DNA of 64,000 nt from Heliopora coerulea (lineage: Eukaryota; Cnidaria; Anthozoa; Scleralcyonacea; Helioporidae). Below are positions 3,745-26,404 of this stretch, piece after piece. The position numbers and the translations under genes were made by a program. The stretch's first letter is position 1. Each line of letters opens with the position of its first letter. Under the pieces are notes generated by a model. It was given only the letters and a program-made list of their open reading frames with translations. It searched no databases and was not told the origin of the DNA. The DNA is taken from NCBI GenBank assembly GCA_030142905.1, contig JASJOG010000511.1, forward strand, positions 1-64,000, read 5' to 3'.

Positions 3745-3789
3745 ACTGCACTGATGAGGCCCAATAGGCCGAAACGGTTCCGTCTCCAG

Positions 3790-3790: not shown

Positions 3791-3829
<39 letters not shown>

Positions 3830-5049: not shown

Positions 5050-5099
5050 TAACCGAAGGTCCACGCGAAGCGTTTTTAAGAATTTTGTTTTAAATAAAA

Positions 5100-5297: not shown

Positions 5298-5304
5298 AAT
5301 TTAA

Positions 5305-5316
5305 TATAAATAAATG
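5305..5316 (+). promoter_or_regulatory. TATAAATAAATG start-codon motif (type example)
   Basis: The motif ends in the ATG of the gene at 5314. Equivalent sites with TATAAATAAATG or TATAAAATAAATG lie at the starts 12467, 13154, 14664, 16182, 16750 and 17015 on the plus strand and at 6375 and 9666 on the minus strand. Looser A+T forms lie at 5100, 6997, 8252, 10808, 10830 and 17287. The recurrence at so many starts on both strands implies a promoter or initiator, not chance. The role is inferred. Confidence 0.75.
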
Positions 5317-5763
5317 GGTCATTGTATTTCAAAAACAAAAAGTGAAAATAATTCACACGATTCAAGTATTGAAAATCATATTGAAAATTCTAAAAATAAA
5401 AATTCAAAATCAAATCTTGACCGATCCGGTATAAATCTTCATGGTTATCCACCAATAAATTTTAGAAAAGTTAAAAAAAGCGGTTTTAGAATTGGCGCGC
5501 ATGTTGATATCGGTTTTAAAGATTTTGAAGCTGGTGCGAATTTTGGAAGTAATTCTATTGAAGAGGTTAATTTTTCAGAAAATAATAGTCATTTGAAATT
5601 ATTAAAGTCTCTTGAAAATGAAAATAAAAATGACACAGAAAAAGATAAAATAATTGCTTCACTAATTAATTTAAAAAATGATAATGTTAACATTCCCTCC
5701 GGTCATCGACTTCGTCGCCCTTCGGGTTCCGCTGAGCCAAAACCTAAAAATGAAGATGAATAA
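5314..5763 (+). CDS. Predicted N-myristoylated Polinton protein, unknown function
   Basis: 149 residues with no family I recognise. It begins MGHCISKTKS: Gly2, Cys4 and Ser6 match the usual N-myristoylation signal, with a possible palmitoylated Cys, so membrane anchoring is likely if it is made in an animal cell. The first 45 residues are Asn/Ser/Lys-rich and probably disordered. A middle stretch (residues 55-90) is Gly/Phe-rich (IGAHVDIGFKDFEAGANFGS), followed by an acidic, Lys-rich tail. The start is fixed by the TATAAATAAATG motif. Codons for GHRLRRPSGSAEP near the end coincide with a GC-rich double hairpin (5707-5726), unlike the rest of the gene. It is the only long rightward gene in the left arm and ends tail-to-tail with the leftward block. 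Confidence 0.7.
   Translation: MGHCISKTKSENNSHDSSIENHIENSKNKNSKSNLDRSGINLHGYPPINFRKVKKSGFRIGAHVDIGFKDFEAGANFGSNSIEEVNFSENNSHLKLLKSLENENKNDTEKDKIIASLINLKNDNVNIPSGHRLRRPSGSAEPKPKNEDE
5707..5726. repeat. GC-rich double hairpin in coding sequence
   Basis: CGAC-TTC-GTCG followed directly by CCC-TTC-GGG, in frame near the end of the gene at 5314. Confidence 0.8.
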
Positions 5764-5799
5764 TTTTGTAATTTTATAATAAATCAATATATTATAAAA

Positions 5800-6375
5800 T
5801 TAATTTGTTGAGGATGTTGATTCTTCTGTCGGAGGTGTTGAAGCTTCGCTTCCGGACCTTCGGTCCGATTTTGTTTTAGTTTGTTTTTTAATAACATGTT
5901 TTCCAACGGTAATACCACCAGATAATATTCCAAGATATGGTAGATATGGAGATACTTTTTCAACTACATTTTTTACATCTCTTTTTAATAATTTATCTTT
6001 AACAAGTTCTTTTTCTAATTCTTCACTACTTTCAATTGCTTCTAACCCTCCTAATAAATCTGAAAATTTACTAATAAGTAAATCTGTTAAAAATACGTTT
6101 GCTTTTTCTGCTTGTTTAATTTCATATTCAGAATAAATTTTTAATATAATTTTATCACTCGCTTTTTTCAAATTTTGAACTGATTGACAAATTTCCCCAT
6201 CTTCAGACAATCTTATCAATTCTTCTCGTTTTTTCATTACTTCTTTTTTAACATCTTGCGTTTTACTTTCTTGATCATCCGACTGACCGCTTGCGGACCG
6301 TAGGTCACGTTGATTACTTGCGGATGTATTTGATTCCATTTGTGGTATTTTTACATAATCACTAGTTGCACTCAT
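5800..6375 (-). CDS. Hypothetical coiled protein, last gene of leftward block
   Basis: 191 residues, unrecognised. The N-terminal third is polar and Ser/Gln/Asp-rich, the middle is strongly helical and charged (likely coiled coil), and a short hydrophobic stretch (YLPYLGILSGGITVGKHVI) near residues 144-162 could touch membrane. The tail is Ser/Thr-rich. The start has TATAAAATAAATG and overlaps the stop of the ATPase gene by 14 nt. Two segments are encoded by GC-rich hairpins: RSASGQ near residues 26-31 (6287-6306) and SDRRSGSEAS near the C-terminus (5840-5867). A virion or assembly role is only a guess from its place after the capsid and ATPase genes. Confidence 0.65.
   Translation of the reverse strand: MSATSDYVKIPQMESNTSASNQRDLRSASGQSDDQESKTQDVKKEVMKKREELIRLSEDGEICQSVQNLKKASDKIILKIYSEYEIKQAEKANVFLTDLLISKFSDLLGGLEAIESSEELEKELVKDKLLKRDVKNVVEKVSPYLPYLGILSGGITVGKHVIKKQTKTKSDRRSGSEASTPPTEESTSSTN
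5840..5867. repeat. GC-rich double hairpin in coding sequence
   Basis: GAAGCTTCGCTTC then CGGACC-TTC-GGTCCG (a perfect 6-bp stem with 3-nt loop), inside the C-terminal codons of the gene at 5800-6375. Confidence 0.85.
6287..6306. repeat. GC-rich double hairpin in coding sequence
   Basis: CCGC-TT-GCGG overlapping GACC-GTA-GGTC, near the N-terminus of the gene at 5800-6375. Confidence 0.7.
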
Positions 6376-6997
6376 TTATTTTATAACTAAATGGAAAAAT
6401 TAAATTTATTTCTAAACATGAATATTTTTTTGTTTTCAAAGTTTCCAAAATTTTTTCCATCGAACTCTGTTCGCCGCTTCGCGGTTTGCGGTCGCCTACG
6501 CCTAAATATTCTTGAATTATTGTTGTCATATCTTTTTTATTAGGGTTATAAAATGTGACTAATTTTGAAATATTTTCTCTAAATGGTTTTGCAATAGATG
6601 TCAGCTGCTGGGTTATCACACAGCAGCTAAGATTATAATGTCTAGCGCTAAACCCTAATTTAACCAACTCGCTTGTTCTATTTTTAACATTTTTTCCACT
6701 TGCACAATCATCCAATATGATTAAACTTTTACTTCCTTTTGAAAAGTCAACTATAAATTTTAACCAATCTTCAACAATATCTTTGTCACAAGGAATAGCA
6801 ATAAAATCTTCATCTTTATCATATTTCCAATTTTCATAAGTTTTATTCCATTCAAATGTTGGACAAATTAGAAAAATATAATCAAAATAATTTTTATATT
6901 CATTTTCTATAAAATCCAAAAGATATTTTGTTTTTCCACAAGCAGTCATTCCAACAATTATCATATTAAATGGTTTTTTGTCATCGTTCACGTTCAT
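6362..6997 (-). CDS. A32-like genome-packaging ATPase
   Basis: 211 residues. Walker A is GMTACGKT (residues 16-23) and Walker B is LIILDD (92-97), followed by a conserved ITQQ (128-131) at the expected sensor position. This order and length match the FtsK/HerA-type A32 packaging ATPases of Polintons, virophages and large DNA viruses, which drive DNA into preformed capsids. It sits immediately downstream of the candidate major capsid gene, the usual partner, with a 16-bp gap. The start is preceded by an A+T run (AAAAATAAAAAATG), a looser form of the element's start motif. A segment near residues 166-174 (GVGDRKPRSGE) coincides with a GC-rich double hairpin (6461-6484) inserted in frame after the catalytic core. 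The reading frame is intact. Confidence 0.9.
   Translation of the reverse strand: MNVNDDKKPFNMIIVGMTACGKTKYLLDFIENEYKNYFDYIFLICPTFEWNKTYENWKYDKDEDFIAIPCDKDIVEDWLKFIVDFSKGSKSLIILDDCASGKNVKNRTSELVKLGFSARHYNLSCCVITQQLTSIAKPFRENISKLVTFYNPNKKDMTTIIQEYLGVGDRKPRSGEQSSMEKILETLKTKKYSCLEINLIFPFSYKINECN
6461..6484. repeat. GC-rich double hairpin inside ATPase gene
   Basis: CGAAC-TCT-GTTCG then CCGC-TTC-GCGG, in frame, downstream of the Walker motifs. Confidence 0.8.
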
Positions 6998-7013
6998 TTT
7001 TTATTTTTGATGT

Positions 7014-8252
7014 TTAAAACTGAATTGAAGATAAATCTTTATTTACAATATTTAACAACCCATCGCTTATTACAAATACATAACACATTACATTTGCTGT
7101 AGTAGCAGTCTTTTTAATTTCCAACATTAACCCAGATTGTGTGTTTACTAATTTTTTTCCAGTTCCATAAACAAAATTGTCGTCTAATGTTCTCAAATCA
7201 ATACATAATGCGAAAGAGTCTTTGTAGAATTTTTCAATATCCATAACTGCATCACAGTCAAAATAATTACATCTAAATATTCTTTTTGCTTCTTCAAAAA
7301 ATCTACGTTTGGGAAATCCTTGGGAATAAACACTATTTGGAATTCCTTCAACACTAATTTTTACATCTGTTATATTTGGGTAAACAAATTGTTCACTGTC
7401 TGTAACAGTTTTATTTCTAAATAGCAACACAACCGCTTTCATACTTTTTCGCGGAATATTTATGGTTTCATTGTGTAAAGTAGCGTTTTTATCCCATTCT
7501 ACTGTTTTCATCAAAGTCACATAATTATATGACAATGATCTTCCTGAGGTGTAATTTGTTAAAATATCAGTTGCTAAATCTTGATTTTCAATAGTTTCAT
7601 ATTCCAATTCTAAATTTTCTAATTTGTATCCTACAACACTTTGACCACTTTGTGCAACCATAATTTCACTAGCTTTTGGGAAAGTTAAAACATATTGAAA
7701 ATTATTTATCATTCCATAAGGAGAATATAATCCATGATCTGCAAGTATTTTTTCCAGTTTTAAACATTGTTTTGTTCCATAAATGTCAAACATTAACTTA
7801 TCAGAAACTTTTTCTGCACTTCCACTTGTTGCTCCAGAGTCATCTTTTGAAATTAATTTTCTAAGATTTTCTCTTGCAATACCATACTCAACCATATCTT
7901 CTCTTTCGAATTTAGTTTTCCAAAGATCTTTGTAAATTTCCAAAATAGATTCTCCGCTATTATCGTAAACAATTTCTCCAGCAAATTTAACAACTAATCT
8001 TTTCTTTAACAATTTTGATAAATTATTTAAAAACCAAGACTTTGTATTTGAATTTTTAAAATTAAATAACAATCTTAATGAATCGGGTACAAGACACAAA
8101 TTAGGGTTTAATTTTGGGATATCTATATAAAGGTCTTCTTCTGGATTTACTGAATTTGGATTTAAAGTTACAACATGTCTTGTTCTGATTCCTTTAATAT
8201 CACTCATTTTGGATCTTTTATATCCTGGATATAATTCGTTTACTCTATTCAT
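7014..8252 (-). CDS. Candidate Polinton major capsid protein
   Basis: 412 residues, intact. It resembles a group of proteins common in cnidarian and other animal Polintons, with an N-terminal block VVTLNPNSVNPEEDLYIDIP (residues 27-46) and a C-terminal block YPNITDVKISVEGIPN then VYSQGFPKRRFF (291-319). Position next to the A32-like ATPase, length and beta-rich composition fit a double jelly-roll major capsid protein, but no catalytic motif exists to prove it, so the call rests on family resemblance and synteny. No GC-rich hairpin was seen inside this gene, unlike several neighbours, which suggests such insertions are not tolerated here. The start follows TATATAATAAAAAATG. An alternative is another structural protein of the same module. 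Confidence 0.7.
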   Translation of the reverse strand: MNRVNELYPGYKRSKMSDIKGIRTRHVVTLNPNSVNPEEDLYIDIPKLNPNLCLVPDSLRLLFNFKNSNTKSWFLNNLSKLLKKRLVVKFAGEIVYDNSGESILEIYKDLWKTKFEREDMVEYGIARENLRKLISKDDSGATSGSAEKVSDKLMFDIYGTKQCLKLEKILADHGLYSPYGMINNFQYVLTFPKASEIMVAQSGQSVVGYKLENLELEYETIENQDLATDILTNYTSGRSLSYNYVTLMKTVEWDKNATLHNETINIPRKSMKAVVLLFRNKTVTDSEQFVYPNITDVKISVEGIPNSVYSQGFPKRRFFEEAKRIFRCNYFDCDAVMDIEKFYKDSFALCIDLRTLDDNFVYGTGKKLVNTQSGLMLEIKKTATTANVMCYVFVISDGLLNIVNKDLSSIQF

Positions 8253-8285
8253 TTTTTATTATATAGGAAATACAAAAAATTTTTT

Positions 8286-9666
8286 TTATTCTTTATCCTT
8301 TTTATTTTTCTTTCGGTATTCTTTGTATTGTTTGTATAAAAAGTATGCAATTGCAATAGATAATATCCATAGATTTTTAGCTAAAAAATTAATACCTTTT
8401 GCCCCCCATGCTAATATTTGAGAAATTAAATTTAAAACTGCTGAAATGACTGCACCAAAATTTTTACCTATATTTGCAATTGCTTTTCCCAATTTTCCAA
8501 CTGCATTTGCACCTTTTTTTAATGCGTTTCTTGCTCCTATAACTATTGTTGTAATTATACTTGCCACAGCAATTGCTACTGCTGATAAACCTGCAATATT
8601 TTCTTTTGCCCATTTTTTGAATCTTTCTAATCTTCCAAGGTCAGATTCCTCCGCTTGTTCATTTAAAATATTTATTCCTTCTTCACTGGTTGGTTTTTCA
8701 TTATTTCCAAGTATCATTTTATCTGTTTGACGTTCTGCAATTTCTGAAAAAGCTTTATATATACTTTTTTTGGTTTCATCTGTTTCTGAATTAGCTTTAT
8801 CTTTCCAATATTTATGCTCTTCATAAAATGATTTAATTTTTCCTATAACTTGCATCTGTCTTTCTTCTTCTGTCAAATTAGGATCAATATTTTCCAAATA
8901 TATCAAACCCGCAAATTCTCTTAAATCATCTCTTTCAAATGATGTTCGTCTTTGATCCCGTTCATTATTAATGAGTAATTCAAGTTTATTTTCTTTAATT
9001 ATTTTATCAATTTTATTTTGAATTTCCGAAATGGAATTTTCAATTATATTTTTTCTCTCAATCTCTTTCAGTTCAATATCCTCATAACTTCCATCATTAG
9101 ACAATTCTCCTATTTTTTTATCTATAATAGAATCTGGTGTTTTTTTCATATTCTTGTTTTGCTTTTTCAAAAATATCTCTGAATTCATTAACATAATTCT
9201 TATTCCATTTTACAAATAATTTTAGTTTATTGTGAGCACCAACATTACCAATTCTTTTATCTTTGTAAATAATTGAAACATTTCCTTTTTCATTTCTTTC
9301 AAACCTAGTTTTGTCTAACAATATTGTATTATTTTCTCCATTTTTCTTTTCAGGAGTGAAATCAAATATTTTTTTGAAAGATTTTTTTCTATCATCAGTA
9401 ATTGATCTTTTAATTCCTCCTAAATTTTTTAATTTTTTTAAAAAACCTTTAGAGTCAGGGTCTTTAACTCTAGTTACTTTGGTGTTTTGGTCTGTTAGGT
9501 CTGGGAGTAACATAGTTGTTTCTCCAGTATCTAAATTTGTATCAGCAAAATTTCCCCCATCAGCTTTGCTGCCCCCAGTTTCACCTTCATCACGGTCGTC
9601 TTCAAACTCACGGTCTCTTATATTTCGCTCATTTAATTCTATATTATCAAAACCGTTATTATCCAT
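8286..9666 (-). pseudogene. Membrane-associated Polinton protein, frameshifted
   Basis: Two overlapping frames (9666 to 9118 and 9194 to 8286) look like one gene of about 460 codons. The total span is one base over a multiple of three, an A-run near 9142-9148 sits where the frames change over, and only the first frame has the TATAAAATAAATG start motif. The N-terminal half is acidic and disordered with Asp/Glu/Gly stretches (GETGGSKADGG, partly encoded by a hairpin at 9561-9571). The middle is helical and charged. The last ~110 residues carry a hydrophobic segment (AVAIAVASIITTIVIGA), an amphipathic Lys/Gly/Ala-rich stretch, then LWILSIAIAYFLY and a basic tail. A virion membrane-interacting role is possible by analogy with lytic minor capsid proteins, but I do not recognise the family. 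A sequencing error in the A-run would explain the break equally well. Confidence 0.6.
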
Positions 9667-9671
9667 TTATT

Positions 9672-10808
9672 TTATACATTTTGAATAATTTTTTCTGCAA
9701 TCCAAGAATTATGTTTATTGTCATAACCTTCCCACTTTACCAACACCATATTTTTTCCTTTCACTTTTTTTCTTTTTAATATTTTCTCTACTTTATATAA
9801 GTGATCTTTATCACTCACATCATTCACAGCAGATAGTTCCTGTTCATAAAATTTTCCAATAATTGGTTCTCCCTCAAAGTCTTCCACTTCATACATGTTT
9901 GGATCACCTCTGAATACTTTTACAATTTTAAAAATTTCTTCTGTAAAATTAGCTTCATAACCTTTTTTAAAGATATTCTTATATTTAGAAATTCTAACAG
10001 TGTCACCAATTCTGAATTTAGGTAAAGGTAAATCTCCCAATGGGTGGCCATATAATGTATTCCACACTTGGTCTTTGTTAGATTCATTTACATCAACAGG
10101 TTTCATTAATATACTACTGTGTTTAGTATTATTATAATTATCTACAAGTTTTTTCAAAACGTTGATCCAATTATAAGTTTTATTTTTATAAAAATATTTC
10201 CACATAGATGTTTTTAGAGTTCGATTAAATCTTTCAACTATAGCTGCTTTTTTAACAGATTTAGAGGAAAAATAATCAACACCATCACCAGTTTCTTTCA
10301 ATAAACTTTTTACACCAACATTATAAAATTCTTTTCCTTCATCAAATTGAGCTACATTTGGATATTTACCAAATCTTTTTTTGAATTTTCTAAGTAAGTC
10401 TGAAACAGCTATTGTCATGTTTTTAGTATCTTTTCTATAAACAGGAATAGCAAACGCATATCGGCTCAAAATTTCAACAGCAGTAAGAATCCAGTAAAAA
10501 TCATCATTATCTTTTTTGTATTTTTTCATATCAATTAAATCCATTTGTATTTGATCACCTAAATCTTTAACAAATGTTTTTTGAAATTTATGTCTTCTAA
10601 CAATTGGTTTGTGTCTTGTAAAAGTATCTTGTGTTTTTAACCAGTCTTTCACAATTTTTCTACTAACTTTTAACCCCTTTGGAAGTCTGTCTTTTAATTT
10701 TTGGTAAAGTCTTTCTGCAGATTGATAACCTGTTTTAGGATTGTAATAAATATCTCTTAACTCTTGTTCAATAACAAGCATGTTGGTATCACTCACTTTG
10801 TCGTTCAT
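9672..10808 (-). CDS. Retrovirus-type integrase with chromodomain
   Basis: 378 residues, intact. Catalytic triad D90 (QMDLID), D156 (AQFDEGKEF) and E192 (VERFNRTLK) gives D-65-D-35-E, the spacing of the rve integrase family. The N-terminal domain lacks an obvious HHCC zinc site. A C-terminal chromodomain (about 337-378; YKVEKIL, LVKWEGYD, NSWIAEKI) could bind methylated histone and steer insertion. In Polintons this enzyme joins the TIR ends to the target and makes the 6-bp duplication, as seen at 4601 and 22524. It is the first gene of the leftward block and shares a 21-bp A+T spacer with the divergent gene at 10830. It ends 5 bp before the next leftward gene. The catalytic residues are all present, so this product may still be active by inference. 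Confidence 0.95.
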   Translation of the reverse strand: MNDKVSDTNMLVIEQELRDIYYNPKTGYQSAERLYQKLKDRLPKGLKVSRKIVKDWLKTQDTFTRHKPIVRRHKFQKTFVKDLGDQIQMDLIDMKKYKKDNDDFYWILTAVEILSRYAFAIPVYRKDTKNMTIAVSDLLRKFKKRFGKYPNVAQFDEGKEFYNVGVKSLLKETGDGVDYFSSKSVKKAAIVERFNRTLKTSMWKYFYKNKTYNWINVLKKLVDNYNNTKHSSILMKPVDVNESNKDQVWNTLYGHPLGDLPLPKFRIGDTVRISKYKNIFKKGYEANFTEEIFKIVKVFRGDPNMYEVEDFEGEPIIGKFYEQELSAVNDVSDKDHLYKVEKILKRKKVKGKNMVLVKWEGYDNKHNSWIAEKIIQNV

Positions 10809-10829
10809 TTATTTTTATTAAAATAAATA
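10809..10829. promoter_or_regulatory. Divergent promoter between integrase and rightward block
   Basis: The whole intergenic gap is 21 bp of nearly pure A+T between two start codons facing away from each other. It reads as an ATAAAAATAAATG-like motif to the left and TTAAAATAAATAATG to the right. Both start motifs overlap in this spacer, so the two blocks cannot have separate conventional upstream promoters here. Confidence 0.6.
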
Positions 10830-12080
10830 ATGAATTCACTTGAAAAAGCTGAGAAAAAATATTATGGAAAAAATTATGATTTTGTGGTTAATGAAAGAAA
10901 AATTTTGGATAAGAAATTTAAAGAAAGTTTTTTGAAAAAATATCCATATGCAGACATGTCAAAGTTTTATTTTGAACATGATATTAATAAAGATGGAAGT
11001 TGGGAAAAAACAATAACATATTTCAAAAACAATGAATATATTTCAACAGACATAAATTCAGATACATTTAAAAATGATCCAAATATGGCAAAATATCTTT
11101 ATATAAATAAACCAAAATCAAACTTTCCAAAAATTTGGAAACTTGGAGGAGCTGTACAAGAATTACCAAGAGTAAAAAGACATGTTGATTATACAGGAAA
11201 AAATTATTATTGGGATAATTTTCCTACGCAGTATATTTTAAGTTATCCAATTAATCAGTTTAGAATTTATGTAAACAATACAGATTATTTTCAAAGTAAT
11301 TTTCCTGGATTAAACATAACTACAAATGATAATGCAAAATGGTCACTTAATGAACCATACTTTCAAAGCATTATAGGAGCATGGATTGCAACTTATGGTT
11401 GCGGAATTTCAATCCAACATTTATTATTTTCATCTTCCATTCCAAAACAAATTACATCATTTATGAGATTTCATTTATATTTTACAGTCAGAAGAATTAT
11501 GCACCAACTGAGAAATGGTGATGACAAAATCTTTCATAAATTTAATGCTGGTTTTTTAAAAGATCATTATCCAAAATGGACTTATCAAGAAATTATGAAC
11601 CTGAAAGGTGAACACCTGGGTCAAGATGTTGTTGGTACAGACCCATGGAAAAGATATCAACACGTTCCGGGCCAAATTAGAGACACTCAAAATGATTATA
11701 AAAAATTTGTTCCAAAAATTTCAAATGGATTAATAAAAAATGGAACTGAATTATTGAATCAAAGCATTGAAGCATATCTTTATGCAATACTAGGAGCACA
11801 AGCAAGAACAAGACAAAGTATTGTTTCAAATAGAGCTTCAGCTTTAGAAACACAAAAGATTTTTAGACAAATTTTTGAAGATTCAATTATAAATTATGAC
11901 ACATCAACCTGGATAAATAATATGAATACAGCAGTTTCATCAACAAATGTTGTTTTAAATACTGCAATAAGTCCAACTTTATGGCTAATTCCGAGCAGTT
12001 TAATTATTTTAAAAGATCCTATTGAAGGATATAATAACAAATTAAAAGTTTCTGATGAAAAATATGGTTTTTGGAATTAA
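10830..12080 (+). CDS. Conserved-looking Polinton protein, unknown function
   Basis: 416 residues, intact, unrecognised. It is Asn/Lys/Tyr-rich with many aromatic residues and no clear membrane segment or catalytic signature. A soluble N-terminal helical part is followed by a region with FPTQYILSYPINQFRIYV, a Gly/Cys/Ser stretch GCGISIQHLLFSSS, and a long C-terminal half ending KYGFWN. First gene of the rightward block, next to minor-capsid and fibre genes, so a structural or DNA-handling role is plausible but unproven. I looked for the His-Asp/Glu-Cys layout of adenain proteases here and did not see it. The next small gene's ATG (12064) overlaps its end. No GC-rich hairpins were seen in it. 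Confidence 0.75.
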   Translation: MNSLEKAEKKYYGKNYDFVVNERKILDKKFKESFLKKYPYADMSKFYFEHDINKDGSWEKTITYFKNNEYISTDINSDTFKNDPNMAKYLYINKPKSNFPKIWKLGGAVQELPRVKRHVDYTGKNYYWDNFPTQYILSYPINQFRIYVNNTDYFQSNFPGLNITTNDNAKWSLNEPYFQSIIGAWIATYGCGISIQHLLFSSSIPKQITSFMRFHLYFTVRRIMHQLRNGDDKIFHKFNAGFLKDHYPKWTYQEIMNLKGEHLGQDVVGTDPWKRYQHVPGQIRDTQNDYKKFVPKISNGLIKNGTELLNQSIEAYLYAILGAQARTRQSIVSNRASALETQKIFRQIFEDSIINYDTSTWINNMNTAVSSTNVVLNTAISPTLWLIPSSLIILKDPIEGYNNKLKVSDEKYGFWN

Positions 12081-12151
12081 CGAAAATTTAAATTATTATG
12101 GTGGAGAAAAAAAAACAAAATTACAGGGAAATGAAATAAAGAAAAATGATT

Positions 12152-12176
12152 GACCGGAGGTCTCACCGCTTCGCGG
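12152..12176. repeat. Double hairpin that coincides with a premature stop
   Basis: GACC-GGA-GGTC, TCA, CCGC-TTC-GCGG. Short direct repeats ATAAAGAAAAATGA lie on both sides, and the TGA of the broken small gene overlaps its first bases. Confidence 0.8.
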
Positions 12177-12261
12177 AATAAAGAAAAATGAATCCAAAAA
12201 AGATATAAAGAAAAATGAATCCAAAAAAGATTTGAAAAATAATACATTAAAAGACATTTCA

Positions 12262-12287
12262 AGCCCTTCGGGCTCGCCGCTTCGCGG
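12262..12287. repeat. GC-rich double hairpin
   Basis: AGCCC-TTC-GGGCT, CG, CCGC-TTC-GCGG. The second hairpin is identical to those at 6474 and 12166. Confidence 0.8.
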
Positions 12288-12375
12288 TCTTTCAGGTAAA
12301 TCACCAAAAACACCCATTGGGTCAAGTGAAAATTTAATTATTTTATCTTTATCAATAATTGGAGGAGTTTTAATC

Positions 12376-12440
12376 GCACGGTACGTGCTCTGATCGGACA
12401 AAGTCCTCAGGACCAGAGGTCCAGAAAACTTTTAGTTTTC
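12376..12440. repeat. Run of four hairpins between small gene and minor capsid gene
   Basis: GCACG-GTA-CGTGC (12376-12388), GTCC-TCA-GGAC (12403-12413), GGACC-AGA-GGTCC (12410-12422) and GAAAACTTTTAGTTTTC (12424-12440), the second and third overlapping. They occupy most of the spacer before 12467 and could also act as RNA hairpins. Confidence 0.75.
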
Positions 12441-12466
12441 GAATCAAAATATATATTATAAAATAA

Positions 12467-13153
12467 ATGACAAATCTTAAAATATTTATCAGACAAGACG
12501 AAAACCGTGAAAAAATAATTCAACTAGAAGAACCGCTTATATTAACTCATTGTGGAGGTCATATGTTTGTAAAATCAGTAAGTATATTTTGGAATTATAA
12601 TAATTTATATCAAAATATTCATCATTATACTTATGATACACAAGGTGCTAATAGAAAAATTGACTTCAAAGATGGATATTATACCTTTAATATTTTAAAA
12701 ACTGAATTAGAAAATGTCGGCGCAATTGAACTGGAACAAATTGATTTTTCTGGAAAATGCACAATAAAATCGGATAAAACATTAAATTTACAAACATTTG
12801 GTCCAATCATAGGATTTCCAGAAAATAAAGTAATACAAGCAAATACATTAACAGAGAGTGGCAGCGAGGTAAATATTAATAACAACTTGGAATATGTAAA
12901 CATAAGCTGTAATATGATTGATAAAAGTAAAAATTTTGTAGATGGTAAAAGAAGTGACATTCTTATTCAAATTCCAATAACAACAGAACAAACATTAAAA
13001 GGTAGTGTTTCTAAAATTTATCTACCTGAAGAAACAGGACCGGGAGGAGGAATAAAATTATCAAATGGAATATATAATGAATTAGAATTCAAAGTAGAAG
13101 GAAATAATTCATTATCAATAGGAAATGTTTTGTTAGAAATTATTATAAAATAA
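12467..13153 (+). CDS. Candidate minor capsid (penton) protein
   Basis: 228 residues, intact, starting at TATAAAATAAATG. It is beta-rich, with recurring short strands and loops: DGYYTFNILKTELE near residues 68-81, a central IGFPENKVIQA, an IPITTEQTLKGSVSKIYLPE stretch and a C-terminal GNVLLEIIIK. The size and predicted all-beta composition fit a single jelly-roll minor capsid protein, and it lies directly before the fibre-like genes, as a vertex protein might. There is no diagnostic motif, so the call is by composition, size and synteny. It could instead be a fibre-anchoring protein. It ends immediately (0 bp) before the next start at 13154. Confidence 0.5.
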   Translation: MTNLKIFIRQDENREKIIQLEEPLILTHCGGHMFVKSVSIFWNYNNLYQNIHHYTYDTQGANRKIDFKDGYYTFNILKTELENVGAIELEQIDFSGKCTIKSDKTLNLQTFGPIIGFPENKVIQANTLTESGSEVNINNNLEYVNISCNMIDKSKNFVDGKRSDILIQIPITTEQTLKGSVSKIYLPEETGPGGGIKLSNGIYNELEFKVEGNNSLSIGNVLLEIIIK

Positions 13154-14640: not shown

Positions 14641-14663
14641 AATTAATTTAATTGTATAAATAA

Positions 14664-15839
14664 ATGAGTGTTATATTTGATGATGATGATTTTAGTTCAA
14701 AAACACAAAGTCAAAAAAAATTTTTATTAAAAGAATTTGATAAAAAATTATATTTATCTGGCGGAACAATGCATGGAAATTTGAATATGCTTTCTTATAA
14801 AGTAATTTCCAGTGCAACACCATCTGGAAATACTGATTTAACAAATAAATCATATGTTGATTCCAAATTATCTTTATCTGGTGGAACAATGACAGGAGAT
14901 TTGGATATGGGAAATAATCATATTGTTCACGCTGCAAATTATTCTCCTTCTTCTAATTATCATGTTGTGAATAAAAAATACGTTGATGGTAAAACTAAAG
15001 CTTTGAGAAATGATATTGTGGCAACTTCGTTGTCGTGTATTTATAATTTACAAATGGATGATTTGGGAATTTTTGAAGTTAAAGATGATGATAATTATAT
15101 AGAATATACTGGAAGCAATAAAAAGGTTGAAAAACTTTTCAATTTGTCAAGAAAAAAAGATTGGAATTTCAAACAAGATGATACAAACAAACAACCATTT
15201 TTCAAAAAATCCACAATTAATAATAATTTTTATTGTGTTCAATACCACGCTGGTCTTGGATCAAACGTTTCAAATAGCAGCAATTTACATTTAGTTAGTA
15301 CACAAGATATTTTAAGCAATCAACACTTGAATTTTTATTTTGTATATGGTTTAAAATCATTAAATTTGTCTAACAATGAGGTGTCGTTGTTTAAAATCGT
15401 AGATAATGAAACAGCAAGTCAACCAGATCCTTCTAATTTTGGTATTTCTTATCGTAATTCATTATTATATATCACAAATTCATCCACGTATTCAATTTCA
15501 AATGACAGATGGCAATTGAAAGCAAATGCAACTCAAATAAACAAATTAATATGTCTTTCTGTTCATTGGGATCAAGGTAACGTCAGTGGTGATAAAAAAG
15601 GAAATCTTTATGTGAATGGAAAAGAAATTGTTTCTTTCAATACAACTGCTAGAAAGTATCACACCCCAAATATGAAATTTTATCTTGGATCAAAAAATAA
15701 AGATCACGGAAAAATGGATGGAGAAATATTATATGTATATATTTCAACAAGAAAAATGAAATATCCAGAAATTGTTTTAAACCATTATCTTCTTTGTAAA
15801 AAATATAGTGTTGATTTTGACGAAGATAATATATTATAA
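14664..15839 (+). CDS. Tail-fibre-like repeat protein 2 with lectin-like C-terminus
   Basis: 391 residues, intact, starting at TATAAATAAATG. Residues ~30-105 hold two fibre repeats (LSGGTMHGNLNM ... NKSYVD and LSGGTMTGDLDMGNNHIV ... NKKYVD). The rest is a concanavalin/LamG-like domain parallel to that of the upstream gene: NKLICLSVHWDQG and LYVNGKEIVSF match its ICLSVHWD and YCNGKKL blocks, and both end in a KK/LYNVD or KKYSVD motif. The two genes are thus tandem paralogues that kept the receptor-like head and lost or gained shaft repeats. A host-binding spike role is inferred from phage tail-fibre families, with the shaft expected to be trimeric. There is no signal peptide, as expected of a protein assembled inside the cell. 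Confidence 0.75.
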   Translation: MSVIFDDDDFSSKTQSQKKFLLKEFDKKLYLSGGTMHGNLNMLSYKVISSATPSGNTDLTNKSYVDSKLSLSGGTMTGDLDMGNNHIVHAANYSPSSNYHVVNKKYVDGKTKALRNDIVATSLSCIYNLQMDDLGIFEVKDDDNYIEYTGSNKKVEKLFNLSRKKDWNFKQDDTNKQPFFKKSTINNNFYCVQYHAGLGSNVSNSSNLHLVSTQDILSNQHLNFYFVYGLKSLNLSNNEVSLFKIVDNETASQPDPSNFGISYRNSLLYITNSSTYSISNDRWQLKANATQINKLICLSVHWDQGNVSGDKKGNLYVNGKEIVSFNTTARKYHTPNMKFYLGSKNKDHGKMDGEILYVYISTRKMKYPEIVLNHYLLCKKYSVDFDEDNIL

Positions 15840-16181
15840 AATATTAAAATATATAACTAAATAACTAAATAAATTTTAAATAATTTTAAATAACCGCTTG
15901 CACGCAGCTTTGCTGTTTGTGGCTATTTAAAATTTACTTGTTTTTTATTTGAATCTATTTAATTTTACTTATGAATAACTTTGAATAACTTTTAAATAAA
16001 TTTTAAATAACTTTTAAATAACGTGAAGCGTGACATCGAGCAAAGCTCTCAGAACCGAAGGTTCAGCAAAGCTGTTTTAAATAAAAAAATTTACTTGTTT
16101 TTTATTTGAATCTATTTAATTTTACTTATGAATAACTTGAATAAATTTTAAATAACTTTTGAATAAAAAAATTATAAATAA
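15840..16181. other. A+T-rich spacer with 50-bp direct repeat and hairpins
   Basis: No gene seen. A perfect 50-bp direct repeat (15931-15980 and 16088-16137) surrounds a run of hairpins: GAGCAAAGCTC (16038-16048), GAACCGAAGGTTC (16052-16064) and AGCAAAGCT (16065-16073). An imperfect hairpin also lies near 15893-15924. It is the longest gene-free stretch inside the Polinton apart from the TIRs, so it could hold a regulatory or replication signal. Confidence 0.6.
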
Positions 16182-16706
16182 ATGAGTGAAGACAGTAAAA
16201 CAAATAAAGTAACAGCAGTTGAAAAATCTGAAAAAGTAAAAGACCCAAGAAAAGTAGAATTGGGAAAAAGATTAGCAAAAATTTCAAGAGAAGCAAAAGA
16301 AAGAAAAGCAAGACAGCGCGAAAAAAGTGAAGCGGAGCTTGAACGTAAAGTTGACCGCGACGACCGAAGCTTAGCGGAAGAAATAAATGACTATGTAGAT
16401 TTTAGGTATATTGTTGGAGGAGTAACAATTGTTGCTGCGCTTGGAGGCCTATATTATGCATATAAAAGCGACAAAAGACAAAGTGAAATCAAACAAAATG
16501 ATCGACCAGAGGTCTCATCGACCGGAGGTCTCAGCACCAAAGGTGCAGCATCGAGCCGAAGGCTCTCGCCGCTTCGTGGAGCGAAGCTGCAGCAAAGTGA
16601 AGAAGAAAACAAAAAAGTTAAGATAGAAAATAAAAATGGCTATGAAATTAAATTCAAACCATCACGCTTCGCGACGGCTACGCCGTGTTCTATTGAAAAC
16701 CTGTAA
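16182..16706 (+). CDS. Single-span membrane protein with hairpin-encoded tail
   Basis: 174 residues starting at TATAAATAAATG. Residues 1-70 are very charged (Lys/Glu/Arg, probable helix). Residues 76-95 (YIVGGVTIVAALGGLYYAYK) form a clear membrane span. Residues ~108-138 (starting DRPEVSSTGGLSTKG) are encoded entirely by a cluster of GC-rich palindromes at 16504-16579, unlike the A+T-rich rest of the gene. The tail contains a further hairpin pair at 16665-16685. The frame stays open through all of them. No family is recognised. The likely topology is N-terminal charged domain and single anchor; a virion envelope or inner membrane role cannot be shown. Confidence 0.65.
   Translation: MSEDSKTNKVTAVEKSEKVKDPRKVELGKRLAKISREAKERKARQREKSEAELERKVDRDDRSLAEEINDYVDFRYIVGGVTIVAALGGLYYAYKSDKRQSEIKQNDRPEVSSTGGLSTKGAASSRRLSPLRGAKLQQSEEENKKVKIENKNGYEIKFKPSRFATATPCSIENL
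16504..16579. repeat. Cluster of five hairpins inside the gene at 16182
   Basis: GACC-AGA-GGTC (16504-16514), GACC-GGA-GGTC (16520-16530), GCACC-AAA-GGTGC (16534-16546), GAGCC-GAA-GGCTC (16553-16565) and CCGC-TTC-GTGG (16569-16579). All loops are 3 nt and the reading frame stays open. Confidence 0.9.
16665..16685. repeat. Double hairpin in coding sequence
   Basis: CGC-TTC-GCG then CGGC-TAC-GCCG, near the C-terminus of the gene at 16182. Confidence 0.75.
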
Positions 16707-16749
16707 GAAAATAAAGTTTGCAAAAAAAAATTTTTATATGTATAAATAA

Positions 16750-16983
16750 ATGGGTGAAATGAATAGAAAAGAAGGTATGAATGAATTATATGATTCTACA
16801 ATAATTACATTGGGAGCTGTTGGAGTTGGAATGGTAACTAGAAAAGTAATTAGTGATGGTTTGTCAACTCCATCTAGTTTAGTTCCAACTTTAAAACTTG
16901 CAGCAGCTGTTGGATTATCATCGCTTACAGTTAAATATGCTCAAGACAAAAAGTGGATTCCTTCTGATCCATTCAAATCATGA
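16750..16983 (+). CDS. Small two-span hydrophobic protein
   Basis: 77 residues starting at TATAAATAAATG. Two hydrophobic helices (IITLGAVGVGMVTR near residues 18-31 and VPTLKLAAAVGLSSLTV near 45-61) sit between a charged N-terminus and a short basic/acidic C-terminus. It begins MGEMNRK, so Gly2 could be acylated, though the context is weaker than in the gene at 5314. Between a single-span protein and a coiled-coil protein in the same orientation, with short gaps. Unrecognised family. Confidence 0.6.
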   Translation: MGEMNRKEGMNELYDSTIITLGAVGVGMVTRKVISDGLSTPSSLVPTLKLAAAVGLSSLTVKYAQDKKWIPSDPFKS

Positions 16984-17014
16984 ATGTCATAAAATAGAAA
17001 AAATGTATAAATAA

Positions 17015-17290
17015 ATGGAAACAGTCGTTGGTGGATTATTTAATGCAGTTGCTTTTGCAGGTGCTGGATTTTTATTTTCAAAATTAAATCATTCTGGATA
17101 TGAAAAAGAAATAAAAAGACATAATGAAGTAATGGAAAAATTGAGCGAAGCGAAAGAAAAATGGTATGAAGAGCAAGTAAAAAGAAAACAAGAAATTGAA
17201 AAATTAAGGCAAGAGTTGTCTGATGCAAATGCTGATATAAATTTTTTTTTTATGCTTTTAAAAAAAAATATATATATAAATAAAGGATGA
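17015..17290 (+). CDS. Small membrane-anchored coiled-coil protein
   Basis: 91 residues starting at TATAAATAAATG. An N-terminal hydrophobic segment (VVGGLFNAVAFAGAGFLFSK, residues 4-23) is followed by a long Lys/Glu coiled coil (residues ~30-75). The last residues are encoded by a T9 run and an A9 run and read into the next gene's start (4-nt overlap), so the true C-terminus may be shorter if those runs have slipped. No known family. Three small membrane-type genes in a row before the polymerase suggest a membrane-linked module. Confidence 0.55.
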   Translation: METVVGGLFNAVAFAGAGFLFSKLNHSGYEKEIKRHNEVMEKLSEAKEKWYEEQVKRKQEIEKLRQELSDANADINFFFMLLKKNIYINKG

Positions 17291-18533
17291 ACATGTCAAG
17301 TAATGTTTCACAAAATATATTGGATTCTGATAATCCAAAACGTGGTCGTGGAAGACCAAGAAAATACCCTTTTGGTTCTTTTGTAGGACCAAGACGGGAA
17401 AAAAGAGGTAGACCAACAACATTACCTCCAGAAAAAAGGCAAAGTGAGCGAATTTTTGCTAGAGGCAGAGGAAGACCAAGAAAAAATCAGGAAATTTCCT
17501 CGTCAAATTTAGACAAACCAGTTACAGAAGAAAATTTACAAGCACCTTTAAAACCAACTCAATATATAAAACCAAATAAAAATTTTGTTGAAAAATCAAA
17601 GGAAAAAATATTAAAATTAATTGATAAATACAGTCCATTAAATAATAAAGTAACGGGAAAAAAATGGTATAACCACCTGAAAGATAATGTTTTAGATATA
17701 TTTAATAAATTACAAAATAAAGTTTCAACCCCAACTGCAAAATTTGTATTGGATAAAGAAGCTTTGAATGTAACAAAAAGATATCAAATGGATTTGAAAA
17801 AATTTGGATTGTCTTTATATGATCCTTTGACTCTCTTGAAAAAAGTAAAACCATTGGTGATTGAAAAATTCAAAAAATATCCAAGTACAAAAGAACAAAT
17901 AACTCTTGTGTGTTTGATGGAAAAAACAAATCCAGCAACAGGTGAAACAACTGTGGATAATGCTCATTTTCATAGTTACTACGAAGAAATTTTTGAAGGA
18001 AATAATTTTGATGAAATATATGAAAAAATGACCCAAAAAATTAATTTAAGTTTTGAAGAATTTTTAAATAATTCAAGTTTGTGGAAATTTCATAAAAGTT
18101 TGAAAGTAATTCTCAATATTAGCGAAATTAAAAGATTACTTGCCTCATCTTATATTCCTTTACCAGAATTTTTGAAAAATAAAAAAGCAATTATCAATCC
18201 AAAAAATGAAGATCAAAAATGTTTATTATGGTGCATAACAATAAATGAACTTTTGAAAACCACACCTGATTTAAAACACCCTGAGAGAATTACAAAAATT
18301 TTGAAAAAGAAAGCTGAAAGTTTTAATGTAAAAGATATTAATTTTCCATGTGGATTTTCTGATATTGATAAATTTGAAAAAAATAATAACATTACAATTA
18401 ATTTATTTGGATACAACGAAGACAAAAATCATGAAATTTTTCCTTTGAGAGTAAGTAAGGTTGATCTGAAGGTGCTTTGCGATCCAAATATTGAACCATC
18501 ACACGTAAATATATTGTTAATAACTAATGAAAA

Positions 18534-18553
18534 CCCGAAGGGCAACGGAGTTG
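18534..18553. repeat. Double hairpin, polymerase copy 1
   Basis: CCC-GAA-GGG plus CAAC-GGA-GTTG. It encodes NPKGNGV in frame, just before the His of the Cys-His region. The second stem differs from the other copies by paired changes (CAAC/GTTG against CAGC/GCTG). Confidence 0.9.
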
Positions 18554-18833
18554 ATAAACATTATTGTTTAATTAAAGATAAAAGTAGATTATTTTCAAGT
18601 CAAATTAATAAAAGTAAAGAAAAAACACATATTTGTGATAATTGTTTGCAACATTTTAGTAAGGAAAATGTTTACAAAAATCATTTAGAATATTGTAAAG
18701 AGTATGAATGTGGAAAAACTGTTTATCCAGATAAAGGTGAAAAATTAAAGTTTAAAAATTATGAAAGAATGCATGATGTTCCATTTGTAATTTATGCAGA
18801 TTTTGAATGCAATCTGAAAAATATAGATGAAAA

Positions 18834-18853
18834 CCCGGAGGGCAGCGGAGCTG
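18834..18853. repeat. Double hairpin, polymerase copy 2
   Basis: CCC-GGA-GGG plus CAGC-GGA-GCTG, encoding NPEGSGA shortly after Exo I. Confidence 0.9.
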
Positions 18854-20067
18854 TTGGTGAACATACAAAACAATTTCAAAAGCATGAACCATCTGGATAT
18901 TGTTATTTAATAAAATGTTTTGATGATAATTTATATAAACCAAAATTAGTAAAATGTAGTAAAAAACCCGGTGAACCTGATTTTGATATTTCATTAAAAT
19001 TTGTAAAAAGTTTAGAAAATGATATTAAAAAAATACATGAGAAATTTAAATACCCAAAAAAAATAATATTATGTGAAAAGGATAAAGTAGATTTTAGAAC
19101 TGCAAAAAATTGTTATGCTTGTGGAATTAAATTTGGTAAACAGGAAAAAAATGATATTCTTAGTGAAAAGTTAAAATCTTTAAAAGATAAAATAATATAC
19201 AAAAAATGTGGTATAAATATTGAAAAAACAATTTCTTATGTTTATAAAAATCATTGTGATTTATATGAAAAAACGCAAAATTATAAATGTATTGAAGATA
19301 TTAGTAATGAATTTAAAGAAATTTTTAAAAACAAAGAACAACTTGGTTTAAAATTTAATATGAGGAAATATGAAAATGAACTTTTTATATATTTCAAAAA
19401 AAAAATTAAAAAAGAAAATCATGATGGTTTAATTTATAATATATTAAAATATAATTTAAAATTAAAAGAAGAAGTTAAAGAAATGATAAAATTATTTAAA
19501 AAATCAGAAAAATTAAAAGTAGAACCAAAAAAGCCTGATGATAATAACATTTTTGATGTGACTGATTATAAAAAAATTGAAACTGAATTAACTTTTGAAG
19601 AAGCTGACGAATTATTTATGAACGATAAAATTTCAGCTGAAGAATTTAAAAAATATTTTGATAAAAAAGAAAATGAAATAGAAAACGAAAAAGAAAAAGA
19701 AAAAGAAAAAGAACCGAAAAGAACCAATTTCACAGACAAAGTTAGAGACCATTGTCATTATACTGGTAAATATAGAGGGGTTGCTTGTATTAGTTGTAAT
19801 ACAAAAATGAAAAAACCTAAATTTATTCCAGTTATATTTCATAATTTACAAAACTATGACAGTCATTTGTTTATTAAAAATCTTGGTGTTTCAGAAGGTG
19901 AAATTGATTGTATACCAAACACTGAGGAAAAATACATTTCATTTACAAAAGAATTTATTGTTGGTAAATTTGAAAAAACAGACATAGTAACAGAAAAACA
20001 ACTTAAAAGTAAATTAAAAGAAAATATTATTGAGTGTGAAGAATTAATTATTGACAGTGAAACGACA

Positions 20068-20080
20068 GGACCGCAGGTCC
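20068..20080. repeat. Single hairpin in polymerase gene
   Basis: GGACC-GCA-GGTCC, in frame (GPQV). Confidence 0.75.
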
Positions 20081-20219
20081 AGTATAAAATTAAAGAAATT
20101 GTTAATGTTAAAAGAAAAATTAGATTTATTGATAGTTTTAAATTTATGCAAACTAGTTTAGCAAATTTAGTTAATAATTTAGATAAAAATGAAATGAATA
20201 TTTTGAAAAAATTTTTTAA

Positions 20220-20239
20220 CCCGAAGGGCAGCGAAGCTG
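20220..20239. repeat. Double hairpin, polymerase copy 3
   Basis: CCC-GAA-GGG plus CAGC-GAA-GCTG, encoding NPKGSEA between Exo II and Exo III. Confidence 0.9.
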
Positions 20240-21434
20240 GTGAAGAACAAAGAAACTTGTTAACTAGAAAAGGTGTTTTTCCATATGAATGGTTTGACAG
20301 CATTGAAAAATTAAAAGAAGAAAAACTTCCTGATATTGAAAAATTTTATTCTAGTTTAAATGATGAAAGTATAAGTGAAGAAGATTATTCACACGCACAA
20401 AATGTTTGGGAAAAATTTAATATTAAAAATATGAGAGAGTACCATGATTTGTATTTGAAAACCGATGTAGTTTTATTAGCTGATGTTTTTGAGAATTTTA
20501 GAAAAGTATGTAAAGAAAATTATAATTTAGACCCAGCATGGTACTTCACTTCCCCTGCCTAGCATGGGATGCAATGTTAAAAATTACAAAAGTAGAATTG
20601 GAACTATTATCAGACCCACAAATGTATCTCATGATTGAAAAAGGAATCAGAGGTGGAATTTCAACAATTGTAAAAAGATATGCAAAAGCAAATAACAAAT
20701 ATATGGAAAACAAATATAATTCTGAAAAAGATAGTGTTTATCTTCCGTATTTGGATGCAAATAATTTATATGGTTGGGCAATGAGTAAGAAATTACCTGT
20801 TAGAGATTTCAAATGGATGAAAAACAATGAGTTAAATAATTGGGAAAAATATAATTGTATTTTAGAAGTTGATTTAGAATATCCAGAAAATTTACATGAT
20901 TTACATAATGAATATCCTCTCGCCCCAGAAAGATTAAAGGTTGGTCAAGTTGAAAAACTGATTCCAAATTTAAATAATAAAGAAAAATATGTTTTACATT
21001 GTGAAAACTTGAAATTGTATGAAAAGTTGGGATTAAAAATCACTCGAATTCATAAAGGAGTAAAATTCCATGAAGAAGATTTTATGAAACAATATATTGA
21101 TTTGAACACAAATTTGAGAACAAATGCAAAAAATGATTTTGAAAAAGATTTTTTCAAATTGATGAATAATTCTGTGTTTGGGAAAACCATGGAAAATGTA
21201 AGAAATAGAGTTGATATACAATTGGTAAATAGACAAGAAAAAGCATTAAAATTATTTTCAAAAAGTAATTTTAAAAGTAGAACGATATTTTCTGAAAATT
21301 TAATTGCAATACATAAATATAAGACTAAAATTATGTTGAATAAACCAATATATTTAGGAATGAGTATATTGGATTTATCAAAAACTTTAATGTATGATTT
21401 TCATTATAATTATATTAAGAAAAAATACGGCGGA

Positions 21435-21455
21435 ACCGAAGGTCGCGGAACCGCG
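21435..21455. repeat. Double hairpin just before polymerase motif C
   Basis: ACC-GAA-GGT plus CGCGG-AA-CCGCG, encoding TEGRGTA in frame, about 15 bp upstream of the DTDS codons. Confidence 0.8.
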
Positions 21456-21703
21456 TCATTATTATTTACCGATACAGATAGTTTAATGTATGAAATTAAA
21501 ACCGAAGATTTTTATAAAGATATTTCTCCAGATGTAGAAAAAATGTTTGATACAAGTAATTACTTAAAAGATCATAAAAGTGGGATAAAAACTGGATTAA
21601 ACAAAAAGGTTATTGGAATGATGAAAGATGAATGTGGTGGAAAACAAATAGAAGAATTTGTTGGTTTGAGAGCAAAATTATATGCTTACAAAATGTGTGG
21701 AAA

Positions 21704-21723
21704 CCCGAAGGGCAGCGGAGCTG
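21704..21723. repeat. Double hairpin, polymerase copy 4
   Basis: CCC-GAA-GGG plus CAGC-GGA-GCTG, encoding NPKGSGA downstream of motif C. Same strand and reading frame as the other three copies. Confidence 0.9.
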
Positions 21724-22079
21724 ATGAAGACAACAAAGGAAAAGAAGAAAAAAAATGTAAAGGTGTTAAGAAAAATGTAATTAAAAAAGAAACAACATTC
21801 CAAAATTACAAAGATTGTTTATTTGATGGAGAAGAACAAATAAGAAAAATGAATTTGATAAGACATAGAAACCATGAACTGTATACAGAAAGTGTTGAAA
21901 AGATTGCTTTGTCATATAAAGATGACAAACGAAACATACTTGAAAATAAAATAGACACTCTTGCATTTGGTCATTACATGAATGAAATGATTGAAACTTA
22001 TGAGAATATATTTGGATTCAAACCGTAAAATACTTTATCAGCGAAGCTGTTTAGCAAATAGACTTATTGTTTAAAATTC

Positions 22080-22523
22080 TGTTAAAAAAGGTAATTCCCC
22101 CGCTTGTCGTTGAGGGGTTTTTCCCACATTCCATACATTCCAGATCTCCCTAACAACCGGCGAATCCGAAAATAGTTTTTTTATTGACATCGAGCGAGGC
22201 TAGTTGTTAGGGAGATTGAGCATGTATGGAATGTTTGGAATTTGAAAAATGTTAGTCCGGTGATTCCCCCGCGACACTTTGAAAATTTTGACCCGTTTTT
22301 TAAATGTGTTGAAATTCCCGGTAACGTTAACAAATTCCTTGAAGAGACCGGAAGTGACCGGAAGTGATCGAGCGAACCGAAGGCAGCAGAGCTGCTCAGC
22401 GAAGCAGCTGAAAATTACGTAAACAAGGAAAAGGGTTTTTCCCGACTATTTTTATCGATTTTGAAAATGTGGAAATTTAGTCAAATCCCAAAATGTCCAA
22501 GAACCCGGCTTCTATAGACTACT
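22080..22523 (-). repeat. Polinton right terminal inverted repeat
   Basis: Inverted copy of 4607-5049. It ends CTATAGACTACT directly before the target duplication. Confidence 0.95.
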
Positions 22524-22529
22524 CAGGGT
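22524..22529. repeat. Polinton target-site duplication, right
   Basis: CAGGGT, identical to 4601-4606, immediately after the last TIR base. Confidence 0.9.
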
Positions 22530-26400: not shown

Positions 26401-26404
26401 GCGG

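Follow-up and report, generated by a model that had tools for sequence, protein, structure and literature searches.

The 64,000-nucleotide stretch of Heliopora coerulea DNA analyzed here (contig JASJOG010000511.1, positions 1 to 64,000; hereafter the window) contains a Polinton strewn with short GC-rich hairpins, and the question it raises is whether these hairpins belong to the Polinton itself or have been inserted into it. An earlier note on this DNA had described many such hairpins, mostly with 3-nt loops, within this one Polinton and had proposed that they form a family that spread through it. A listing of the hairpins found them at those places, and CCGCTTCGCGG, which had been reported at 6474, 12166 and 12277, is present at all three. 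We conclude that the hairpins are insertions with empty sites, that one and the same cassette recurs in several genes and at numerous sites unrelated to each other, and that the stems vary on both sides at once between elements. Most probably they constitute a family of ultra-short non-autonomous mobile elements which parasitise Polintons and spread by template switching. The observation of the earlier note is confirmed, and its interpretation is supported and largely right.

On sequence grounds the carrier is a Polinton, named from its terminal inverted repeats (TIRs), its target duplication and its integrase, ATPase and polymerase genes. The long TIRs and target duplication of about 6 nt expected of a Polinton/Maverick are both present, the latter as CAGGGT at 4601-4606 and 22524-22529, read directly on both sides of the element, and so is the expected combination of an rve integrase, an A32-type ATPase and a B-family polymerase (Table 1). 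The rve match of the integrase scores 31.7 bits, just below the Pfam cut-off of 32.6, and no Pfam match was obtained for the capsid candidates g7014 and g10830. The C-terminal part of the polymerase occurs in at least 86 copies in the 429.8-Mb assembly with 87-100% protein identity; these 86 matches were scored among 1,335 candidates, and 50 of them, the window's own copy included, were read. Among the 120 listed polymerase matches, no organism other than a sea anemone (65%) is named.

Hairpins were counted when they had a stem of at least 4 bp, a 3-nt loop and at least three G/C among the four loop-adjacent pairs; stems shorter than 4 bp were not counted. The Polinton interior (5046-22084) contains 31 such hairpins as compared to 1.32 ± 1.30 in 60 dinucleotide shuffles (maximum 5), a density far higher than in shuffled sequence. 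Loops of 5 nt showed a smaller excess (9 observed, 0.75 expected) and loops of 4, 6 and 8 nt no clear one (1, 3 and 0 observed; 1.1, 1.15 and 1.4 expected), while GAA loops exceeded expectation sixfold (10 against 1.6). Seventeen hairpins lie in coding sequence, where shuffling synonymous codons 200 times gave 1.40 ± 1.15 and never more than 5; the 14 classed as noncoding include some in 12081-12466, itself possibly a small gene. Hairpins had been described as lying in frame inside at least six genes, and seven indeed have at least one (g5314, g5800, the ATPase gene, g9118, g13384, g16182 and the polymerase gene), those of g13384, with loops ACA and GTA, being there perhaps by chance. The integrase, the capsid candidates and a 416-residue gene had been reported to be free of them, which stands for the integrase, for g7014 and for the window's copy of the 416-residue gene but fails for other copies of the latter, where two different hairpin inserts were found (L008 and L082). 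Two of three control stretches of host DNA showed no excess (4 against 5.0 and 0 against 1.0), and no family reached its gathering score in an Rfam scan of the window.

The positions of the hairpins vary between related Polinton copies. At 5690, 5830, 6275, 6455, 20068, 20220, 21428 and 21703, some copies hold an insert where others have none or a different one, and several of these comparisons involve near-identical flanks; for the four sites within 5690-6500, eight copies with alike flanks were compared. The hairpin GACC-GTA-GGTC at 6296-6306 is formed by the insert at 6287 together with its flank. At the empty site matching 12394 in the related copy L071, CTCTGA is directly followed by GAAAAC, and the hairpin array at 16504-16600 differs among copies L060, L061, L063 and L068. 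Within the 50 polymerase copies, all 82 hairpins fall in length-variable blocks, counted with 6-nt margins, and the other 83,600 nt are free of them. The 20220 site is occupied by CCCGAAGGG-CAGCGAAGCTG or a variant of it in 10 of the 50 copies, the others having mostly KN or DD there; stem mismatches also occur, in a 27-nt insert beside this site. Copies L010 and L011, which could be alleles of one locus, differ at only about 7 of 2,127 aligned sites (insert edge excluded), yet their 20220 inserts differ.

Comparison with outgroups bears on the direction of these changes. One and the same point at 20706 has received inserts of 12 (two sorts), 15, 27 and 30 nt; the segment is 15 residues long in 33 of 34 anchored outgroups (19 of 53 without anchor) and 19-25 residues long in 10 of the 47 anchored copies of this genome. 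At 21428, 25 of 27 anchored outgroups (26 of 53 without anchor) have 11 residues and the window 16, hence five extra. This insert lies seven residues ahead of the catalytic DTDS motif, between the conserved Tyr297 and Ala306, and coincides with a low-confidence loop (300-303) in a polymerase structure model; this model is weak overall (mean predicted local distance difference test score of 57) and was used solely for this loop ahead of motif C. The site is perhaps an insertion hot spot ahead of the polymerase active site. In L019, L024, L039 and L055 it holds a type-1-like cassette (see below) whose second hairpin contains a further six-nt insert, and in other copies an unrelated hairpin. Twelve outgroup length exceptions were encountered, of which four, at 20591, look like matching artefacts and eight are longer (four at 20849, two at 21428 and two at 21703). 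On a tree built without the indel blocks, ten insert states required 1 to 10 presence changes each.

Two element types with an unpaired skeleton could be defined; together with their confinement to Polintons, the phase locking of type 1 and the inserts in the 416-residue gene, they go beyond the earlier note. Type 1 is 20-21 nt long and consists of a 3-bp hairpin and a 4-bp hairpin, nearly always after an A (15 of 16 surroundings). Its sequence CCCGRAGGGCAGCGRAGCTG has 24 exact copies in the genome as compared to 0 for a control pattern. Seventeen of these lie within about 1.2 kb of scored polymerase matches, and fetching the other seven followed by tblastn gave Polinton genes in each case, namely the polymerase (4), g16182, the 416-residue gene and g8286. 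We read 22 of the 24 copies and one variant, which represent 16 surroundings and, over four genes, 8 gene sites. The 23 agree in direction and in codon phase and encode the peptide N/D/S-P-K/E-G-S/N-G/E-A/V, the phase in L084 having been read against the window's gene since all frames hit stops near the gene end. Cassette-like peptides were detected with a custom regular expression in 16 of 70 g16182 homologs. The type-1 cassette had a single match in IMG/VR, in a stretch of 64% GC where 11.8 kb contain 50 such hairpins and no loop is clearly preferred; the match was taken as unrelated.

Type 2 is 30 nt long and is made up of TC, a 4-bp hairpin, TCA, a 5-bp hairpin and A. Fourteen distinct pairs of adjacent perfect hairpins linked by TCA were found, with TC before 13 and A after all 14, neither being required by the search. 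The pattern TCGRSCNNNGSYCTCAGSASCNNNGSTSCA, which has four free stem pairs, matched the genome 253 times and its reversed version 0 times, 253 being a lower bound because the strict pattern misses the window elements at 12394 and 16036. When the linker was freed to 0-8 nt, 241 matches against 0 were obtained and every listed linker had 2 or 3 nt. Judged by eye, TCA was the linker in all except 19 of about 100, the others being CA, CT, TTA, TAT or TCG. Among the first 100 of the 253 by contig (31 distinct), all four free pairs are intact in 99, as compared to a mean of 27.3 and a maximum of 44 in shuffles, and three of the four free pairs were found both as C-G and as G-C. The paired stem changes described in the earlier note are real; the innermost pair of the second hairpin at 20220, too, is C-G in 4, T-A in 4 and T-G in 2 of the 10 filled copies. 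Pairing kept despite stem variation implies that the fold is under selection, that one arm is copied from the other or that the whole moves as a module; for type 2, module exchange could explain it as well as compensatory change could, because the elements compared are distinct and sit at separate places. In fetched loci we examined 50 type-2 elements with distinct surroundings, of which 31 are not within any open frame, 16 lie in exactly one, with several phases and both directions represented, and 3 lie in several frames. DNA folding of two type-2 elements produced the double hairpin that was expected, with energies of -6.5 and -5.6 kcal/mol. The type-2 pattern had no match in IMG/VR.

Every one of the 24 type-1 copies lies in a Polinton, and so do all 20 type-2 places sampled. 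The latter were chosen away from scored polymerase matches, with the reservation that one of them, C15:83549, lies 11 kb away from such a match and possibly belongs with it. Neither type was found in the window's host flanks (46 kb) or in four host loci. An organelle location, typical of mitochondrial mobile palindromes, does not apply to a Polinton carried in a 430-Mb assembly, in which COX1 was sought and not found.

How the hairpins reach new places is best approached through the clean filled/empty junctions, which show a repeat of 0-1 nt. Clean insertions were found at 12394 and 6287, at 20706 (+30 and +12), at 20591 (+18) and in g8286 in L084. Protein-primed polymerases of the class to which the Polinton enzyme belongs displace a single strand, and template switching is favoured because such a strand lets hairpins form and because type 2 folds as expected. 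The acting form would be single-stranded Polinton DNA exposed by strand displacement, in which the hairpin would fold and the growing end would switch template at short AAAAC or GATGAA-like homology, the cassette thereby being copied to another place. Recombination between Polinton copies would then distribute filled and empty alleles, and stem pairing would be maintained by arm-from-arm copying or by exchange of whole modules. Within genes, frame-preserving lengths and soluble linker peptides (N-P-K-G-S-G-A) would pass selection.

The same junctions have to be weighed for a different agent, since the hairpins might be mobilised in trans by an enzyme recognising folded single strands, either a HUH/Y1-type transposase or a host nuclease-ligase, that inserts them after an A without target duplication. 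The conserved unpaired TC / TCA / A skeleton at the hairpin feet fits such an enzyme, as do the A before type 1 and the fact that every one of the clean insertions can be placed beside an A. We nevertheless consider it rather unlikely, as no such Pfam match was obtained among the Polinton's proteins, several of which match nothing, and replacements outnumber clean insertions among the sites.

If the hairpins were functional Polinton elements, selected for their structure in RNA processing, stability or packaging and merely shuffled by recombination, the strong covariation in type 2 would be accounted for, and so would the hairpin that follows the polymerase gene in most of the copies read. This is very unlikely because sites are gained and lost between near-identical copies and because the 120 listed polymerase homologs lack the type-1 peptide. 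Distant relatives argue in the same direction: the two polymerase relatives retrieved from IMG/VR with an alignment query (44% identity) have no hairpin excess (2 against 1.6; 3 against 2.2). The polymerase and the 416-residue protein as IMG/VR queries returned no relative.

Stem arms that change together, with a T-G intermediate at 20220, and indels that in some cases are simple GGTGAAGAT repeats could also suggest that hairpins arise in place through quasi-palindrome correction or slippage, without moving. Empty alleles with neither arm, as found at 20220, 5830 and 6455, speak against such on-the-spot mutation, and unrelated sites hold the same cassettes of 20 and 30 nt, identical ones being present at 8 gene sites; local mutation is thus highly improbable and was rejected as the main cause. 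Finally, insertion by the Polinton's own rve+chromo integrase, which would make the hairpins tiny miniature inverted-repeat transposable elements of the Polinton, is extremely improbable and was rejected because a duplication of about 6 nt like CAGGGT would be expected and clean hairpin junctions have only 0-1 nt.

Several observations weigh against mobile elements spreading by template switching. Regarding the excess, the host control stretch 47000-64000 is also enriched (12 against 4.75, shuffle maximum 11); it contains a foldback repeat, the sole part of its excess that is accounted for. Regarding confinement, the 20 type-2 places were hand-picked among the 100 listed first out of 253. In addition, CCGCTTCGCGG is carried by a host repeat; it occurs 181 times in the genome as compared to 15 and was rejected as Polinton-specific after 4 of 8 inspected places turned out to be in that repeat. 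The single direction and codon phase at all 8 type-1 gene sites are unexpected under random insertion and are the strongest sign of peptide selection, or else of copying that uses surrounding AAAAC / GATGAA-like sequence; moreover, type 1 as folded DNA is no more stable than its own shuffles. Of the 9 polymerase sites, only 2 yielded clean filled/empty pairs in which the insert was hairpin-like, and one of these two, 20591, has no perfect 3-nt-loop hairpin. The other polymerase sites replace bases too, which fits switching but other repair too. As to polarity, 4 of the 11 anchored outgroups are likewise longer at 20849, so that the change may have gone either way there, and one outgroup, P0085, is longer by five residues at 21428. 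It is to be noted that the analysis is based on assembly sequence, from which we infer the template-switch step.

Table 1. Polinton, its identified genes and the hairpin inserts of the window.
Feature	Position	Strand	Context and occurrence
Polinton carrying the hairpins	4607..22523	.	TIRs of 439 nt, 4607-5045 / 22085-22523, 98% identity
Double hairpin CGAC-TTC-GTCG / CCC-TTC-GGG	5707..5726	+	g5314; empty 5, other hairpin allele 2, present 1 (8 copies)
Double hairpin GAAGC-TTC-GCTTC / CGGACC-TTC-GGTCCG	5840..5867	-	g5800, C-terminal; empty in 6/8 copies
18-nt insert, empty form GACTGA^TCACGTT	6287..6304	-	g5800; present 4, empty 3, other 1 (8 copies)
Pox_A32-type ATPase	6362-6997	-	Pfam
Double hairpin CGAAC-TCT-GTTCG / CCGC-TTC-GCGG	6461..6484	-	ATPase gene; absent in 8/8 other copies
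rve+chromo integrase	9672-10808	-	Pfam
Type-2 variant of 28 nt, starts TT, second hairpin CCGC-TTC-GCGG	12150..12177	+	
Double hairpin AGCCC-TTC-GGGCT / CCGC-TTC-GCGG	12262..12287	+	
Type 2, 30 nt, TC-GGACaaaGTCC-TCA-GGACCagaGGTCC-A	12394..12423	+	
Type 2, 30 nt, TC-GAGCaaaGCTC-TCA-GAACCgaaGGTTC-A	16036..16065	+	between genes
Type 2, 30 nt	16518..16547	+	in frame in g16182, within hairpin array 16504-16600
B-family polymerase	17287-22028		two overlapping open reading frames
Type-1 variant CCCGAAGGG-CAACGGAGTTG	18534..18553	+	polymerase gene
Type-1 double hairpin CCCGGAGGG-CAGCGGAGCTG	18834..18853	+	polymerase gene
Single hairpin GGACC-GCA-GGTCC	20068..20080	+	polymerase gene; same or close variant in 12/50 copies
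Type-1 double hairpin	20220..20239	+	polymerase gene; same or variant in 10/50 copies
15-nt in-frame insert, one possible placing	21435..21449	+	polymerase gene, inside GGCGGAACCGAAGGTCGCGGAACCGCG at 21429; 7/50 copies
Type-1 double hairpin	21704..21723	+	polymerase gene; same or close variant in 10/50 copies
Single hairpin CAGC-GAA-GCTG	22039..22049	+	behind polymerase gene; differs among copies

Further features of the window were recorded alongside. Two genes at 13384-15839 contain repeated 'LSGGTM' motifs and 132-nt tandem repeats and, we presume, resemble phage tail fibres; the second has a weak Laminin_G_3 match. An A+T-rich inverted repeat at 5769-5798, recognized by eye and unlike the GC-rich hairpin family, separates two convergent genes and might act as a 3'-end signal. 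Outside the Polinton, the best organism-named match of a flanking hAT-like protein is from the glass sponge Oopsacas minuta (60-70%). At 26000-45000 there is a large tandem repeat, its period being 5,974 nt, with a same-sized open reading frame at 28291, 34265 and 40239. Three CTGATGA...GAAAC stretches at 3510-4045, which had no Rfam match at gathering score, resemble what we take to be hammerhead ribozyme cores. The host repeat mentioned above (L002, L003, L005 and L007) has CCGCTTCGCGG between GGTGAA palindromes and is about 70-72% like window 27391-27755. The host foldback at 48925-49010 (GGTGTTTAAGCGATATATGAACC ... GGTTTATACATCGCTTAAACACC) has the tip TC-GGGC-TTC-GCCC-TCA, near the first half of type 2, a likeness that may reflect chance or a link.

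Palindromes of comparable habit are known from bacteria and organelles. The bacterial REP/REPIN, small palindromes that frequently occur in pairs, have a foot that is unpaired and conserved, leave no long target duplication and depend on a RAYT transposase. The Polinton elements resemble them as paired small palindromes with an unpaired foot but may differ in this dependence, no Y1 (RAYT) Pfam match having been obtained among the Polinton's proteins. Rickettsia palindromic elements, in the portion of the source used here, likewise insert in frame into protein genes where the peptide is tolerated, but they measure about 150 bp with an open reading frame and reside in a bacterial chromosome, whereas the Polinton inserts are 12-30 nt long and reside in a eukaryotic transposon (PMC10969869). 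According to the sections consulted of the Volvox study, organelle palindromic repeats there are also selfish short palindromes with 3-5 nt loops, but of about 50 nt and in intergenic or intronic DNA, their nuclear copies being thought inert, whereas the Polinton elements are 20-30 nt long and often in genes (PMC2670323).

The closest in kind are the mitochondrial GC clusters and double-hairpin elements (DHE). Repetitive hairpins with sporadic presence or absence at defined sites are common to GC clusters, DHE, repetitive hairpin-forming elements (RHE) and the Polinton hairpins. In the available part of the yeast study, GC clusters (GC42 and kin) are, like the Polinton hairpins, short GC-rich palindromes in A+T-rich DNA with sporadic presence or absence, whose units merge and shuffle and are exchanged between genomes by recombination (PMC4478555). 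Unlike them, the Polinton hairpins are non-mitochondrial, often lie in genes and vary in stems and loops with pairing kept, changes in yeast being concentrated in the loops, and the AG or ACT repeats flanking the yeast clusters are not matched by the 0-1 nt of the clean Polinton junctions (PMC4478555). RHE of sponge mitochondrial DNA, with stems of 10-18 bp, and the Allomyces DHE, as cited in the consulted text of the same sponge study, are hairpins, some of them double, that lie mostly in spacers and sometimes in genes without frameshift, as in the Polinton; that text reports no fixed skeleton like the TC/TCA/A of type 2 for the sponge elements (PMC2800124).

Searching open-literature titles and the beginnings of abstracts for palindromes or hairpins jointly with Polintons, adintoviruses or virophages gave no such family, subscription papers and preprints being outside this scope. 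It is quite possible, if somewhat short of probable, that we are dealing with a 20-30-nt hyperparasite exclusive to Polintons, built as TC-hairpin-TCA-hairpin-A with stems that are free as long as they pair, multiplying on the single strands of protein-primed replication and writing peptides into the Polinton polymerase. Judged by those titles and abstracts, no such family would have been described before for a nuclear DNA transposon of eukaryotes or for its virus relatives. Protein genes, the replicative polymerase included, are seen to absorb pieces of 4-10 residues whose common feature is that their DNA folds as a hairpin. The mobility of mitochondrial hairpins is unsettled, cut-and-paste and retrotransposition being weighed without decision in the part of the yeast study available to us (PMC4478555). 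The Polinton system offers hundreds of copies, empty sites that are clear where checked, one multi-copy replicon and a known polymerase type, and in it insertion sites, junctions, structure constraint and turnover are directly measurable.

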